From NCBI GenBank assembly GCA_018263115.1, contig JADFDC010000001.1, positions 62,001 through 126,000 on the forward strand: 64,000 nt of DNA. The letters are read 5' to 3'. Below, one piece after another: positions 23,869-30,492 of the stretch. The stretch is from Thiobacillus sp. Lineage in GTDB: Bacteria; Pseudomonadota; Gammaproteobacteria; Burkholderiales; Thiobacillaceae. A model generated the notes under the pieces. The model saw only the letters and a program-made list of their open reading frames with translations, ran no database searches and was not told where the DNA came from. How positions within the stretch are numbered: the stretch's first letter is position 1; every line of letters starts with the position of its first letter. A program made the position numbers and the translations under genes.

Positions 23869-25272
23869 ATGGTCATCATGGATAAACCCACAGGGGCCTG
23901 GTCGGGACGGTTTTCCGAGCCCGTCGACGAACTGGTCAAGCGTTTTACGGCCTCCATACCTTTTGATTATCGGCTAGCCGAGTTCGATATAAAGGGTTCG
24001 CTCGCCCACGCCCGCATGCTGGCCCAAGTCGGGGTGATTTCTCCCAAGGATTTCGCAGCTATTGAACAGGGCATGGCGGAAATTCTGGCAGAAATCCGGG
24101 CCGGCCAATTCGAATGGTCGCTGGACCTGGAAGATGTGCATTTGAATATTGAAAGAGCCCTGACCGCGAAAATCGGCGATGCGGGCAAGCGGCTGCATAC
24201 CGGGCGCTCGCGCAACGACCAGGTGGCCACGGATATCCGGCTTTATCTGCGTGATGCCGTTGATCGCACTCTGGATGGCATTCGGGCATGCCAGAACAGC
24301 CTGCTGGATCTGGCTGAGCAGCATGCGAATACCGTCATGCCGGGGTTTACCCATTTGCAGGTTGCTCAGCCGGTGACCTTTGGGCACCACATGCTGGCGT
24401 ATTTCGAGATGCTGGACAGGGATCATGCACGTCTGGCGGATGCCAGGAAACGCATCAATCGGCTTCCGTTGGGTGCCGCGGCGCTGGCGGGTACCAGCTA
24501 TCCCATTGATCGGGAGTTTGTCGCACGCGAACTGGGCTTTGATGGGGTTTGCGAGAATTCCCTGGATGCGGTGTCGGATCGGGATTTCGCCATCGAATTC
24601 GCTGCTGCAGCATCGCTGATCATGATGCATTTCTCGCGTTTGTCCGAAGAACTGATTCTGTGGATGAGCCCCCGCTTCGGCTTTATTGATCTGGCGGATC
24701 GCTTTTGCACAGGCTCATCCATCATGCCGCAAAAGAAAAACCCGGACGTGCCTGAGCTGGTCCGGGGCAAGACCGGCCGGGTGTTTGGGCATCTGATGGG
24801 GTTGCTGACCCTGATGAAGGGGCAGCCGCTGGCCTATAACAAGGACAACCAGGAGGACAAGGAGCCGATATTCGACACGGTGGACACCCTGTTGGACACC
24901 CTGAAAATCTACGCGGATATGTTGAAGGGGGTACGTGTCAAGCCCCAAGCGATGCGTCAGGCAGCCCATGAGGGGTTTTCGACTGCGACTGATCTGGCTG
25001 ATTATCTGGTTAAAAAGGGTCTGCCCTTCCGCGATGCCCACGAGGCGGTGGCACGAGCGGTGCGGGCGGCCGAGATTAATAAATGCGATTTGGCGGATCT
25101 GCCCTTGGATGAACTGCAGGCATTCAGCCCGTTGTTGGGGCAAGATGTCCGTGCTGTGCTGACATTGGAGGGGTCATTGTCATCCAGGAATCATGTCGGG
25201 GGGACGGCTCCGGATCAGGTCAAGGCTGCTGTCGCTCGTGCTCGGGGAAAAATGGCGTCGGCAGGACGCTAA
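23869..25272 (+). CDS. argH: Argininosuccinate lyase
   Basis: Last step of arginine synthesis, cleaving argininosuccinate to arginine and fumarate. Motifs [37 protein letters not shown], the catalytic [12 protein letters not shown] region and the signature [16 protein letters not shown] are complete. Length 467 aa is typical. Start may be the ATG at 23869 or 23878; neither has a clear ribosome-binding site. The adjacency to algZ-algR matches the arrangement known in Pseudomonas. Its end overlaps the convergent MarR gene by 4 bp. Confidence 0.97.
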
Positions 25273-25853
25273 ACCGTCTTTTCTTCAATGGGCAGGTGTT
25301 CCCGGCAAATCTTGCTGACTTCCCGGCTGGACAGCTTTTCCTTGGTCAGTCCGCAGACATAGCTGCGGGGGCCGATGTGCAGATTGTGCTGGCAGGTCGA
25401 GCACACGCCAAAGGTTTTCAGTCCATTTTTTACCTGCATTCTGGCCAGCGCTTCCTTCAAAACCTTGGTGGCTGAACTCAGTCTGGCTGGGCTGGCTTCC
25501 GCCAATGCCTCACGCCAGGTATTGGTCAGCCCCAGCTCCTTCAATACGTCTTTCCCCTTGTCGGTCAGGGTCAGCCGGACAATGCGGCCGTCCTTTTCGT
25601 CGGCGTGCCGGGCAATCAGTTTTCGCCGGGCCAGAAGTAACAAGCTTTGGGAAACGGTACCCTTGGTCAGTCCGAGATATTCGGCCAGCGCCTGCGGGGT
25701 GTTACTGTAACGATTGGCTTCATTCAAATACAGCAAAGCCTGGAGGTGAATGGGTTGCAGGCCCTGAATCACACCGGCCTGGCGCAACCCTGTTCGCAAT
25801 AGATTCCCCAGCCGTTCGACGGTATCCAGAAGGATCAGTGTCTGGTTTTTCAT
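25269..25853 (-). CDS. MarR-family regulator with C-terminal four-cysteine domain
   Basis: Winged-helix MarR domain (about 1-140) with the recognition region [30 protein letters not shown] and wing [17 protein letters not shown] ~50-residue extension contains Cys151, Cys154, Cys167 and Cys183 (CSTC...YVCGLT...KICREH; pattern C-x2-C-x12-C-x15-C), suggesting bound metal or an Fe-S cluster, so sensing may be redox, NO or metal based. It is divergent from the cytochrome P460-family gene; tandem palindromes in the shared intergenic region are the probable operators. I recall this architecture in other MarR proteins but no established function. Confidence 0.88.
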
Positions 25854-25881
25854 GTCTTCATATTAGGCATGGCCGGATTCC

Positions 25882-25909
25882 TTGACAAGACCGCATGTCT
25901 GTATAGAAT
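25882..25909 (+). promoter_or_regulatory. Strong sigma70-like promoter of the cytochrome P460-family gene
   Basis: A perfect -35 box TTGACA (25882-25887) is followed after 16 bp by TAGAAT (25904-25909), one mismatch from TATAAT. It directs transcription towards the cytochrome gene at 25959. The palindromic operators begin immediately at the 3' edge of the -10 box, so a bound repressor would block open-complex formation. Confidence 0.8.
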
Positions 25910-25942
25910 AGTATCGACACGAAACGTATCGTGTCGATACTA
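25909..25942. promoter_or_regulatory. Tandem palindromic operator, probable MarR binding site
   Basis: A 34-bp inverted repeat with perfect 14-bp arms (TAGTATCGACACGA / TCGTGTCGATACTA) and a 6-bp centre. It can equally be read as two directly abutting 15-bp palindromes, GTATCGACACGAAAC (one mismatch) at 25911-25925 and GTATCGTGTCGATAC (perfect) at 25926-25940. The size fits two MarR dimers side by side. Position between divergent marR and P460 genes, overlapping the start region of the strong promoter, supports repression. Confidence 0.85.
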
Positions 25943-25958
25943 AATAGAGGAGACCAAA

Positions 25959-26435
25959 ATGAAGACACTGTTATTTCTGGCGATGAGCCTGTCGGCAGCC
26001 AATGCACTGGCAGCCGATGCCATGAAAGTTGCCTACCCGGACGGCTATCGAGACTGGCGTCATGTGAAATCCATGGAATTGAAGCCTGGACACCCGCTAT
26101 ACGAGTCCTTTGGCGGCCTGCATCATATCTATGCGAATCCCAAGGCGGTAAAAGGCTATCGGACCGGGAAATTCCAGGACGGCTCTGTAATCGTGTTTGA
26201 TTTGCTGGAGGCGAGGAATGAGGGCAATGCCTTGACCGAGGGCAAGCGGAAGGTGTTGGGTGTGATGGTCCGGGACAAGAAGCGGTTCACCGATACGGGT
26301 GGCTGGGGATTTGAGGGCTTTGCCGCAGGCGATCCCGGGAAACCGGTCGTAGGTGGAAATGCGGCCCAAGCCTGCTTTGGGTGCCATGCTCCCCAGAAGG
26401 AAAGCAACTACCTGTTTTCCAACCTGCGTGACTAA
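25959..26435 (+). CDS. Cytochrome P460-family c-type haem protein
   Basis: Signal peptide (MKTLLFLAMSLSAANALA) then a cytochrome P460 domain: YPDGYRDWRHVKSMEL, GGLHHIYANPKAVKGYRTGKF, DGSVIVFDLLEA, GGWGFEGF and a C-terminal haem c motif ACFGCHAPQKE (about 138-148). Length 158 aa fits. The family includes hydroxylamine/NO-oxidising cytochrome P460 and the NO-binding cytochrome c'-beta; sequence alone does not tell me which, because the crosslinking lysine and distal residues need alignment. GAGGAG precedes the ATG. Likely repressed by the adjacent MarR. Confidence 0.9.
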   Translation: MKTLLFLAMSLSAANALAADAMKVAYPDGYRDWRHVKSMELKPGHPLYESFGGLHHIYANPKAVKGYRTGKFQDGSVIVFDLLEARNEGNALTEGKRKVLGVMVRDKKRFTDTGGWGFEGFAAGDPGKPVVGGNAAQACFGCHAPQKESNYLFSNLRD

Positions 26436-26464
26436 GCCATTTTGAATGGTGCCCGGGGCGGCGA

Positions 26465-26773
26465 CTAGCTGAAGACAAGCATGCCGCCGTGGGCCGCGGC
26501 CAGCTCGGTCAGTCTGACGAACAGGTCTGAGTTGTCCCGTGTATCGCGCCAGGTTTGCCCGTCATGGCGGAAGTGAAATCCGCCAGCACGGGCAGCTACC
26601 CATATTTCCTGGGTTGCGGCATGGCGGTTGATCACGATTTTGCCGCCGTCATCAAACTCTACTTCCAGTATGCCGTCAGCCGGCTGTTCAAAATCCAGGT
26701 CGGCCTGTTCCAGAGCCTGTTCAATCCGGGAAAAGGCCGCGCCTGTCAGTTTGAGAAAATCAGTTTCGTTCAT
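26465..26773 (-). CDS. cyaY: Frataxin-like iron donor protein CyaY
   Basis: Small acidic iron-binding protein of 102 aa that modulates Fe-S assembly by IscS. Visible features are the acidic first helix (MNETDFLKLTGAAFSRIEQALEQADLDFE), the DGILEVEFDDGGKIVINRHAATQEIWVAARAGGFHF sheet and a C-terminal helix. It is divergent from lptM-lysA, the arrangement known in many gammaproteobacteria and betaproteobacteria, and convergent with the cytochrome P460 gene. Confidence 0.94.
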   Translation of the reverse strand: MNETDFLKLTGAAFSRIEQALEQADLDFEQPADGILEVEFDDGGKIVINRHAATQEIWVAARAGGFHFRHDGQTWRDTRDNSDLFVRLTELAAAHGGMLVFS

Positions 26774-26859
26774 GATGTGGATCCAGATACGGGCTGCCGG
26801 ACGGGGAATTCACCGCTGGGTGAACACGCTCTTGCTTTGCACATGCTAACATCGCAAGC

Positions 26860-26985
26860 ATGAATTCTCGTTCAATTACCGCCGCTCTGTTATTGCTATT
26901 GTCGCAGCTGACCGCCTGCGGTTCCAAGGGCGCGCTTACCTTGCCGGACCAGAAGCCGGTCAACTTTCAGCAATCCAGCAAATGA
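26860..26985 (+). CDS. lptM: Small lipoprotein LptM (YifL-like)
   Basis: A 41-codon ORF too short for the track: MNSRSITAALLLLLSQL followed by the lipobox LTAC-GSKG and a short tail ending NFQQSSK. This is the size and form of LptM/YifL, a lipoprotein that helps LptDE maturation in the outer membrane. Its stop TGA overlaps the lysA ATG (ATGA), so the two are translationally coupled. The cyaY-lptM-lysA arrangement supports the call. Confidence 0.9.
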   Translation: MNSRSITAALLLLLSQLTACGSKGALTLPDQKPVNFQQSSK

Positions 26986-28226
26986 ACCACCTGCACCGAA
27001 TTGATGGACGCCTTTTCCTGGAGGAGGTGTCCCTCGAAGACTTGGCACGCGAGTATGGCACCCCCTTATATGTCTATTCGCAAGCCGCACTGACCGAATC
27101 CTTCCAGTCTTACGAGCGGGCGCTTGCCGGATTGCCTCATTTGATCTGTTACGCCGTCAAGGCAAACGGCAACCTGGCCATCCTCCAGCATTTTGCCAGA
27201 CTGGGGGCCGGGTTCGACATCGTGTCCGGCGGTGAGCTGGCGCGGGTGATCAAGGCCGGCGGGCAAGCGTCAAAGATCGTGTTTTCGGGTGTGGGGAAGA
27301 CAGAGCCAGAGATGCGGGCAGCCTTGGACGTCGGAATTCGATGCTTCAATGTTGAATCCGAAAGCGAGCTGGCTCGGTTGAGCCGATTGGCGAAAGAGAT
27401 GGGGAAAATCGCTCCAGTCTCCTTCCGGGTCAATCCGGATGTCGATCCTAAAACCCATCCCTACATCTCCACCGGGTTGAAGCAGAACAAGTTTGGCATC
27501 CCGATTGATCAGGCCCCAAAGCTATACCTGCAGGCGGCGGACTTGCCCGGCATTGAGGTTGTTGGAGTCGATTGCCACATTGGTTCTCAACTGATCGACC
27601 TGGCCCCCATCGCGGACGCGCTCGACCGCGTGCTCAATCTGGTAGACGCACTGAAATCTTTGGGGATCGAGCTTAGGCACATCGATATTGGTGGCGGGAT
27701 CGGTATTCGCTATCGGGATGAAACGCCGCCGGATATGGCGGCCTACCGGGACATTCTGATTTCACGCTTCAAGGGGCGTTCCCAGGAAATCATTGTCGAG
27801 CCTGGCCGCTCGCTGGTGGGGAACGCGGGTTTGCTGCTTACCCGTGTTGAATATGTAAAGTCTGGCGACAGCAAGAATTTCGTTGTAGTTGATGCCGCCA
27901 TGAACGATCTCATGCGGCCGGCGCTCTACGACGCCTTTCATGACATCGTCCCGGTTCTGGATTCCGGAGACTTGGGAATGACCTGCGATGTTGTCGGCCC
28001 AGTGTGCGAAACCGGCGATTTTATTGGCCTTGAGCGGAGCCTGGCTGTAAAGGAAGGGTCGCTGTTAGCGGTACTTTCGGCGGGCGCATACGGCATGAGC
28101 ATGAGCTCCAACTACAATAGCCGCCCTCGCGCGGCAGAAGTACTGTTGAACAAAAACGAAATCAGGCTCATCCGAGAACGGGAATCCATCGAGGGGCTGA
28201 TGGCTGGAGAATGGCTTGTTTACTAG
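26982..28226 (+). CDS. lysA: Diaminopimelate decarboxylase
   Basis: PLP enzyme making L-lysine from meso-diaminopimelate. The PLP lysine is in HLICYAVKANGNLAIL, the glycine-rich phosphate-binding segment in HIDIGGGIGIRY, and the substrate-binding EPGRSLVGNAG and cysteine region DVVGPVCETGDFIG are present. Length 414 aa is normal. Overlaps lptM by 4 bp. dapF is not next to it in this window. Confidence 0.97.
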   Translation: MNHLHRIDGRLFLEEVSLEDLAREYGTPLYVYSQAALTESFQSYERALAGLPHLICYAVKANGNLAILQHFARLGAGFDIVSGGELARVIKAGGQASKIVFSGVGKTEPEMRAALDVGIRCFNVESESELARLSRLAKEMGKIAPVSFRVNPDVDPKTHPYISTGLKQNKFGIPIDQAPKLYLQAADLPGIEVVGVDCHIGSQLIDLAPIADALDRVLNLVDALKSLGIELRHIDIGGGIGIRYRDETPPDMAAYRDILISRFKGRSQEIIVEPGRSLVGNAGLLLTRVEYVKSGDSKNFVVVDAAMNDLMRPALYDAFHDIVPVLDSGDLGMTCDVVGPVCETGDFIGLERSLAVKEGSLLAVLSAGAYGMSMSSNYNSRPRAAEVLLNKNEIRLIRERESIEGLMAGEWLVY

Positions 28227-28549
28227 CTTTCAGAGGGGACCTGACTTTTAGGAACGGCTTTAAAATAGTATCGCCTCAATATCATTTGTGGATGCGCCAC
28301 ATTTTTGATCAGAAATATTTCAAATATCCTCAACTAATTGTTGAAGTGTCCGAAAAAGTATCTAGAATGAGGCTCACCAAGCGGAGCTTTGGTATCGCCC
28401 GCCCCAAGCGGGTTTCGGAAGTTTCTCGAATTGAAGCCTTCGAAAATTGATGCCGGATGTGGATGCCACGCTTTGGAAGTGCATTTACAAACCTCTGCAC
28501 GCTTTATTCGTAGTAGTAGTGAATTTGTTCAACTTCTAAGGAGTGATGT
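28227..28549 (+). promoter_or_regulatory. 323-bp intergenic region with promoter-like sequence before the histone-like gene
   Basis: No convincing gene is present (the 79-aa track ORF has no family features or good start). The segment is AT-richer than its surroundings. TTGAAG (28341-28346) and TAGAAT (28363-28368) with a 16-bp spacer form a plausible sigma70 promoter, implying a leader of roughly 175 nt before the AAGGAG ribosome-binding site of the histone-like gene. Confidence 0.5.
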
Positions 28550-29167
28550 ATGGCAACTGCAAAGAAACCCGCAGCCAAAAAACCGGCTGCCAAGAAGCCC
28601 GCAGCCAAAAAAGCTGCACCCGCAAAGAAACCCGCTGCAAAAAAGCCTGTAGCCAAGAAAGCAGCCCCCAAAAAGCCCGCTGCCAAGAAGCCTGCAGCTA
28701 AAAAGCCGGCTGCAAAGAAAGCAGCGCCCAAGAAACCCGCTGCCAAAAAGCCTGTAGCCAAGAAAGCGGCGCCCAAGAAGCCCGCTGCCAAAAAGCCTGC
28801 AGCCAAGAAAGCGGCTCCCAAGAAGCCCGCTGCCAAAAAGCCTGTAGCCAAGAAAGCGGCTCCCAAGAAGCCCGCTGCCAAGAAGCCGGCCGCGAAAAAA
28901 GCAGCACCCAAGAGACCCGCAGCCAAGAAGCCGGCTGCAAAGAAAGCAGCGCCCAAGAAGCCTGCTGCTAAAAAGCCTGCTGCTAAAAAGCCGGCTGCAA
29001 AGAAAGCAGTTGCAAAGAAACCTGCTGCTAAAAAACCGGCTGCAAAGAAGGCCGCTCCCAAGAAGCCTGCTGCAAAGAAGGCCGCTCCCGCCAAGCCTGC
29101 CCCTGCGGCAGCGCCTGCGCCGGCACCTGCTCCTTCTATGCCAGTCATCAAGCCATTTGGGCTTTAA
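28550..29167 (+). CDS. AlgP/histone H1-like Lys-Ala-Pro repeat protein
   Basis: 205 aa consisting almost entirely of AAKKPAAKKPAAKKAAPKKP-type repeats with a short non-repetitive end (PSMPVIKPFGL). It resembles AlgP/AlgR3 and other histone H1-like bacterial proteins that bind DNA through the lysine-rich tail. The start is preceded by AAGGAG at good spacing and the gene is followed by a strong terminator, so it is a monocistronic, probably abundant protein. The DNA itself is a tandem degenerate repeat and so prone to copy-number change. DNA-binding is inferred from composition. Confidence 0.85.
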   Translation: MATAKKPAAKKPAAKKPAAKKAAPAKKPAAKKPVAKKAAPKKPAAKKPAAKKPAAKKAAPKKPAAKKPVAKKAAPKKPAAKKPAAKKAAPKKPAAKKPVAKKAAPKKPAAKKPAAKKAAPKRPAAKKPAAKKAAPKKPAAKKPAAKKPAAKKAVAKKPAAKKPAAKKAAPKKPAAKKAAPAKPAPAAAPAPAPAPSMPVIKPFGL

Positions 29168-29191
29168 GAGTCAAGCCGGATTCGGCAAGAC

Positions 29192-29219
29192 AAAGGGGGC
29201 CCATGTGGCCCCCTTTTTT
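29192..29219 (+). terminator. Rho-independent terminator after the histone-like gene
   Basis: GGGGGCC and GGCCCCC form a 7-bp GC-rich stem with a CATGT loop, followed by TTTTTT; the preceding AAA makes it possibly bidirectional. It is 25 bp after the stop codon. Confidence 0.93.
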
Positions 29220-29412
29220 CAATTCAGGCACCCCCCGCGCATAGAGCGCATGACATCCATTAAGTCAGTTCTCACTCATCTGGCTAACCCGTTTCGCAAC
29301 AGGCTTCCTCAAAACTGTCTATTTAAGTTGTGATTCAAGGGAAGATGGTGTGCCCCTGTTATTCTGATGATCGTGTGCCATGCAATGAACTTACGGGTAG
29401 GATAAGGTTTTC

Positions 29413-30492
29413 GTGCAAATGATGTTCGCCATGCAAACGACTCTGCTCATGCTTATGCTCTCATCCGGGATTGCCTGGGCGCAACCGCCTGGTGGTAATC
29501 AGCCTGTACCAGTCAGGATGATGCAGGTACAGTCCGCTCCGGTATCAGATATTGTCACCGCGGCCGCAACGCTTGTTCCACATGAGCAAGTCATTCTCAG
29601 GCCCGAGATTGATGGCCGGATTGTGAGTCTTACTTTTCGCGAAGGGCAAGCCATCAAGAAGGGCAACGTCATCGTCAAACTGGATGACGCCGAGCAACGT
29701 GCCGCGCTGGCGGCAGCAGTAGCCGATCTGAAACTTGCAGAGAGCCGGTTCAAGCGCAATGCGGAACTGGCCGGAAAGGGTTTCATCAGTCAGCAGGCGC
29801 TGGATGAAGCGCAAGCCAATCTGGATATTGTGAAAGCAAAGGTCCAGGAAGTTAGGGTTGCGTTGGCGAGAACGGTCATTCGTGCGCCTTTCACGGCATT
29901 GGCGGGTTTGCGCAAAGTCAGCCCGGGTGCCTATGTCAAGAAAGGCGATGACATAGTTGAACTGGCGGCCATCGACCAGCTCAATCTTGATGTCAGGGTA
30001 CCCGAAGTGTATTTGCCCCTGGTGAAAATCGGACAGCTTGTCAGCGTAACGGTTGACGCAATGCCAGGCCGGACATTCAGCGGGAAAGTCTATGCCATTG
30101 AGCCAGTGGTGGATCTGGCGACACGCGGTGCCCTGGTCAGGGCGAGAATTCCCAATACAGCCGGCAACCTGAAACCAGGCATGTTTGCCCGTGTGTCGGC
30201 TGACCTGGGCAGAAGGCCCAATGCAGTCGTGGTCCCGGAACAGGCTATCCTGCCCAAGGGCAAACAGACATATATATATAAGGTAATCGAGGGCAAGGCC
30301 GATCTGACCCCGGTGCAGATCGGCCGCCGTTCGCCTGGACAGGTGGAAGTGGTTTCAGGTGTCAAGGCAGGAGACACGATCGTGGTGGATGGCCTGCTTA
30401 AACTGAAGCCGGGCGCCCCGGTGGCGCCGGTTGAAGCCGTCATGCAGATGATGCAGAAGATGCAGCAGCAAAAACCCGGCGCCAAGCCCTGA
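29413..30492 (+). CDS. RND efflux periplasmic adaptor (membrane fusion protein)
   Basis: HlyD/AcrA-type adaptor: N-terminal signal (MFAMQTTLLMLMLSSGIAWA), lipoyl half-motifs (ILRPEIDGRIVSLTFREGQAIKKGNVIVKLD), alpha-hairpin (about 95-150), second lipoyl half (TVIRAPFTALAGLRKVSPGAYVKKGD) and beta-barrel. The start may be the GTG at 29413 or the ATGs at 29419/29422/29431; a GGATAAGG lies just upstream. It precedes the RND pump by 29 bp. No outer-membrane channel gene is nearby, so a channel encoded elsewhere is likely used. Substrate unknown. Confidence 0.92.
   Translation: MQMMFAMQTTLLMLMLSSGIAWAQPPGGNQPVPVRMMQVQSAPVSDIVTAAATLVPHEQVILRPEIDGRIVSLTFREGQAIKKGNVIVKLDDAEQRAALAAAVADLKLAESRFKRNAELAGKGFISQQALDEAQANLDIVKAKVQEVRVALARTVIRAPFTALAGLRKVSPGAYVKKGDDIVELAAIDQLNLDVRVPEVYLPLVKIGQLVSVTVDAMPGRTFSGKVYAIEPVVDLATRGALVRARIPNTAGNLKPGMFARVSADLGRRPNAVVVPEQAILPKGKQTYIYKVIEGKADLTPVQIGRRSPGQVEVVSGVKAGDTIVVDGLLKLKPGAPVAPVEAVMQMMQKMQQQKPGAKP

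Follow-up and report, generated by a model that had tools for sequence, protein, structure and literature searches.

A doubled 15-bp palindrome at a cytochrome c'-beta promoter as candidate operator of a divergent MarR-family protein with a four-cysteine domain

A long inverted repeat lies between a MarR-family gene and a cytochrome gene in a 64-kb stretch of Thiobacillus sp. DNA (the window). Which protein does it serve, and what does it control? A preliminary description read it as two abutting 15-bp palindromes at the promoter of a P460 gene, on which two MarR dimers could bind cooperatively and shut off a strong promoter completely, with a large induction range as the result. We propose that the repeat serves the divergent MarR protein, which carries four cysteines, as a doubled operator, and that this repressor is released when its cysteine site is altered, whereupon an NO-binding cytochrome is made. 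We consider this reading likely as a whole. Comparison of related loci provided the site, its linkage to the four-Cys MarR gene, its promoter position and the invariant cysteines. The features of the locus are listed in Table 1.

Table 1. Features of the MarR-cytochrome intergenic region and of the downstream lysA-HC2 region (window positions).
Feature	Position	Strand	Remarks
MarR-family regulator gene, 194 aa	25269..25853	-	divergent from c'-beta; proposed operator binder
Four-cysteine domain, marR codons 151-183	25305..25403	-	C151, C154, C167, C183
marR promoter TTGTCA-17-TAATAT	25860..25888	-	ends 6 nt before marR ATG; leaderless-looking
c'-beta promoter TTGACA-16-TAGAAT	25882..25909	+	11/12 consensus matches; -35/-10 positions kept in genus-mates
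Putative operator unit 1	25911..25925	.	GTATCG-ACA-CGAAAC; one half-site mismatch; conserved in genus-mates
Putative operator unit 2	25926..25940	.	GTATCG-TGT-CGATAC; perfect half-sites; abuts unit 1; kept in genus-mates, degenerate in G111
Ribosome-binding site AGAGGAG	25946..25952	+	read from sequence
Cytochrome c'-beta gene	25959..26435	+	Pfam Cytochrome_P460 fold, CxxCH heme c
Decayed copy GTATCGCCTCAATAT of second conserved site	28268..28282	.	between lysA and HC2-like gene
HC2 histone-H1-like gene	28550..29167	+	PF07382, E 2e-24; second candidate target in relatives

The sequence and coordinates of the repeat were described correctly. Positions 25909-25942 read TAGTATCGACACGA-AACGTA-TCGTGTCGATACTA, in which the 14-bp arms at 25909-25922 and at 25929-25942 are inverted copies without a mismatch. 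Calling the 34 bp a perfect repeat was an overstatement, as 16 of the 17 pairs match and A25923/A25928 are mismatched. Likewise, of the two abutting palindromes that make up positions 25911-25940 (GTATCGACACGAAAC-GTATCGTGTCGATAC), unit 2 is perfect as claimed, whereas unit 1 (GTATCGACACGAAAC) is imperfect, with one of its six half-site pairs mismatched. No other inverted repeat in the window has arms of 14 nt or more around a loop of 10 nt or less, and none of this kind arose in 40 dinucleotide shuffles. Judged by conservation, the outer TA/TA bases are incidental: among seven aligned sequences of the genus, 26 of the 30 positions in 25911-25940 (87%) are invariant, compared with 10-13% of the flanking positions. 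An Rfam search of positions 25000-30000 yielded no matching RNA family, and no intrinsic terminator was found on the + strand at the repeat.

The near-consensus promoter reported just 5' of the repeat was confirmed (Table 1), and the 30-bp doubled site begins one base past its -10 element. As this element ends at 25909, the usual spacing predicts a transcription start at ~25916-25917, within unit 1. One MarR dimer would sit on each 15-bp palindrome (GTATCG-N3-CGATAC), and both units together would span about -6 to +24 of the c'-beta promoter, so that a repressor sitting there would bar RNA polymerase or prevent the open complex from forming. The four-Cys site, which most likely holds a metal or a [4Fe-4S] cluster, would then be struck by NO or an oxidant; once it is altered, MarR would leave the DNA and the NO-binding cytochrome would be produced. 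Of this scheme, MarR binding, repression, the presence of two dimers at once, the cofactor and the signal are what we infer.

A repeat in this position might instead work at the RNA level, as a hairpin at the 5' end of the c'-beta transcript that controls stability or translation, rather than as a DNA operator. The transcribed strand indeed folds at -25.3 kcal/mol (z -4.6), but with a predicted start inside unit 1 the outer arm would stay untranscribed. Variation within the genus bears on both readings. The doubled site is intact in the window and in six genus-mates, with the promoter just upstream. In G116/L011, where c'-beta looks frameshifted, the operator is intact: four positions have changed, and the 30-bp dyad is preserved throughout (ACA/TGT to ACT/AGT; A to T in the outer half-sites), so that both changed pairs are compensated, as a stem would require. 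In G109 and G112, however, a single outer half-site differs (CGATAC to CGAAAC): the new form is still an allowed half-site, but an outer hairpin pair is broken without compensation. Taken together, the changes in G116/L011, G109 and G112 are more readily explained by a DNA operator than by an RNA stem. The hairpin also fits poorly with other genera, where most c'-beta promoters carry a single 15-bp site whose 3-nt centre makes a poor hairpin, and with the recurrence of the same 15-bp site at marR promoters and before HC2. We regard it as very unlikely indeed.

The site was then traced across the Gammaproteobacteria (in the GTDB sense) by script, with the pattern GYWTCG-N3-CGAWRC and at most one mismatch. 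The class-wide set comprised 31 divergent marR/c'-beta pairs, nonredundant and drawn from the family of the window and from others. The script found the site in 29 of them; L011 is a 30th, hidden by its frameshifted cytochrome, and L195, with a degenerate site only, is the one clear exception. The cytochrome-side site starts 0-8 nt past the -10 element in most of the pairs. Most pairs outside the genus of the window have a second site 3-21 nt upstream of the marR ATG, which suggests autoregulation. Among nonredundant marR upstream regions, 39 of 71 contain the site (at most one mismatch) versus 0.11 expected from shuffles; those lacking it are mostly g11-type loci, in which marR abuts cyaY as in an operon. 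The marR gene of the window looks leaderless (25853-25888, - strand), with a gap of 6 nt between -10 and ATG. Similarly short gaps are seen in the class-wide pairs L187-L203, where the site lies within ~20 nt of the ATG.

These phylogenetic footprints support three ideas of the preliminary description, namely that the 15-bp palindrome GTATCGNNNCGATAC is a MarR operator unit, that the operator overlaps the promoter and start region, and that there are two binding units. Very probably, the divergent four-Cys MarR has this 15-bp unit as its operator, and the doubled form probably serves to repress c'-beta by covering the start region. A different regulator, co-inherited with the four-Cys MarR, could in principle bind the site, and operator-like sequence does persist after c'-beta loss: in G111/L012, where c'-beta was not found, the operator is decaying, in unit 2, and in genus g4 (G003 and G004, no c'-beta found) a doubled variant, GTATCGGCCCGCTACGTAGCGAGCCGATAC, is still present between cyaY and marR. 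Yet the site adjoins the four-Cys MarR gene in many families, including upstream of marR at loci without c'-beta, and c'-beta genes without this MarR are also without the site, as in nine Thiobacillaceae genes of the c'-beta family that have no adjacent four-Cys MarR. A separate co-inherited binder thus appears highly improbable, and the four-Cys MarR stays the preferred partner.

Closely paired sites recur at several spacings: in a 15-bp register in g1 and g4, in a 16-bp register in L071, L073, L120 and L125, and at 22-24 bp in a group of the GCATCG type. From this pattern, the abutting double site is best seen as a local elaboration (15- or 16-bp register) present in several genera. An offset of 15 or 16 bp corresponds to about one and a half helical turns, so two dimers would lie on roughly opposite faces of the DNA. 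Other arrangements exist around c'-beta. L069 and L070, whose c'-beta lacks a four-Cys MarR, have another, CACCGTTCGGTG-like palindrome upstream of c'-beta and adjoin NAD/FAD oxidoreductase genes; a second, different regulator of c'-beta is possible there. In L064 and L074, a small Thioredoxin_3-like gene stands between a MarR gene and c'-beta, an arrangement that suggests a redox operon; L067 and L068 have similar sequence upstream of c'-beta.

The target gene had been taken for a P460 gene, and its product is better assigned to the cytochromes c'-beta, an NO-binding class. The protein matches PF16694 (113.8 bits) and has a CFGCH heme motif in its translation. Its best PDB match is the c'-beta of M. 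capsulatus (6hih, E 4e-57), against E 2e-11 for the best P460. Cytochromes c'-beta are told apart by the absence of the cross-link Lys and by a hydrophobic residue (Phe61) at the position of the P460 cross-link Lys (PMC11928373). In the alignment to 6hih, Phe occupies both the McCP-beta Phe32 and Phe61 positions. Hydroxylamine oxidation of the P460 type was rejected on these grounds, as the heme-lysine cross-link residue is Phe and the best matches are c'-beta proteins. The M. capsulatus protein (6hih; PMC6427953) is thus a close sequence match that shares both distal Phe residues with the cytochrome of the window; for the former, no regulator was reported in the papers searched.

The MarR protein has a winged helix of the PF12802/PF01047 family (PF12802 at 49.3 bits, cutoff 27) and is 86-95% identical to proteins of Thiobacillus, Thiobacillaceae and Hydrogenophilaceae. 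Its predicted fold (pLDDT 92) matches MarR structures, among them the DNA-binding form of MepR (TM 0.84 by target length). In the winged-helix fold, the position of the gene beside its target and, in relatives, palindromic operators on both promoters, it resembles autorepressors of the MepR, MexR and OhrR type. It differs from these by an extra C-terminal four-Cys domain, a different operator and an NO-binding cytochrome as target.

The extra domain consists of the residues beyond ~145, and none of the solved MarR chains listed covers it, as no match extends past profile position 144 of 194; a search by sequence found no solved structure for the Cys domain. Its four cysteines are the only ones in the protein and are invariant in 39 of 39 homologs. 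The domain is likely the sensor of MarR, for metal or Fe-S, and possibly a new type of sensor domain. Modelled alone, the 52-aa tail reached pLDDT 85. Its best Foldseek neighbours, all below significance (best E 0.21), were the small subunit of 4-hydroxyphenylacetate decarboxylase and HiPIPs. All of these are [4Fe-4S] proteins, the decarboxylase subunit being HiPIP-like with two clusters. The AlphaFold model and its Foldseek matches weakly suggest a HiPIP-like fold. Like the four-Cys domain, HiPIP-like [4Fe-4S] domains, which include HiPIP and the small subunits of glycyl radical enzymes (PMC12358834), are small and Cys-coordinated; their match to the MarR tail is below significance, and in the papers searched no MarR was described as carrying one. 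By description, a precedent is ArnR of Corynebacterium, an NO-responsive winged helix with a C-terminal [4Fe-4S] cluster (PMC12343034), which shares the order of winged helix and C-terminal Cys cluster and the link to NO handling. ArnR has three conserved cysteines, whereas the MarR of the window has four, spaced C-x2-C-x12-C-x15-C.

Zinc could be an alternative cofactor, as the fold matches of the C-terminal domain are weak and its Pfam hits are mostly weak zinc-ribbon hints, with one weak hint of HiPIP. Zinc also enters an explanation in which MarR does bind the site and follows another logic: the zinc would be structural and a small organic ligand the signal, or MarR would activate rather than repress. 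The zinc-ribbon hints speak for this explanation, and many MarR proteins sense small ligands. An operator on the start region, however, favours repression, and four invariant cysteines in a protein with no other suit a metal or an Fe-S site, either one. We consider such a different logic rather unlikely, and keep to repression relieved by alteration of the four-Cys site.

The preliminary description had suggested that a genome-wide search might define a regulon. A pattern search of the genome of the window, with a reversed control pattern, gave no broad regulon: within the genus, only the c'-beta/marR locus and one site between lysA and the HC2-like gene recur. One-mismatch sites C13 and C55 were taken as chance, since neither recurs within the genus and hits were obtained with the reversed control pattern as well. 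The single lysA-HC2 site is found in g1, g4, several g11 genomes and other families, with conserved half-sites and a variable spacer. The copy in the window has two mismatches and may be decaying. All 12 MarR-positive genomes in which HC2 follows lysA have the site (at most two mismatches), compared with one of the 12 usable MarR-negative genomes, of which only three have an HC2-like gene there; this co-occurrence is suggestive rather than strong. A one-mismatch site also precedes HC2 in G128, in which MarR was not detected. Because the sites linked to HC2 are located upstream of the likely promoter and not on it, regulation there may have a different sign.

The site and the same four-Cys MarR in many proteobacteria point to a widespread regulatory switch, of which no description was found in open-licence papers. 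None of those searched described a transcription regulator of cytochromes c'-beta or linked c'-beta or HC2 to a MarR, and in a heme review that mentions both 'cytochrome P460' and 'MarR family' the two are not connected. A MarR with a divergent target and operator is of a known kind; what may be new here is the type of sensor domain. Cytochromes c'-beta have no settled biological role, and a defined operator with a conserved partner and a likely metal or Fe-S sensor allows direct tests of the inducing signal. More unexpectedly, the link to HC2 opens the possibility that one sensor also controls nucleoid packing. A broader proposal can be put forward tentatively, namely a MarR subfamily, widespread in proteobacteria, with a HiPIP-like [4Fe-4S] sensor. 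Its one 15-bp operator would link c'-beta and, in a second branch, the histone-like nucleoid protein HC2 to NO (or redox) stress, and paired abutting operators would sharpen the response. Apart from this, a long leader (CTCACCAAGCGGAGC...), with no Rfam match in the window, is conserved before the HC2-like gene in the window (28283-28549) and in L036-L041.
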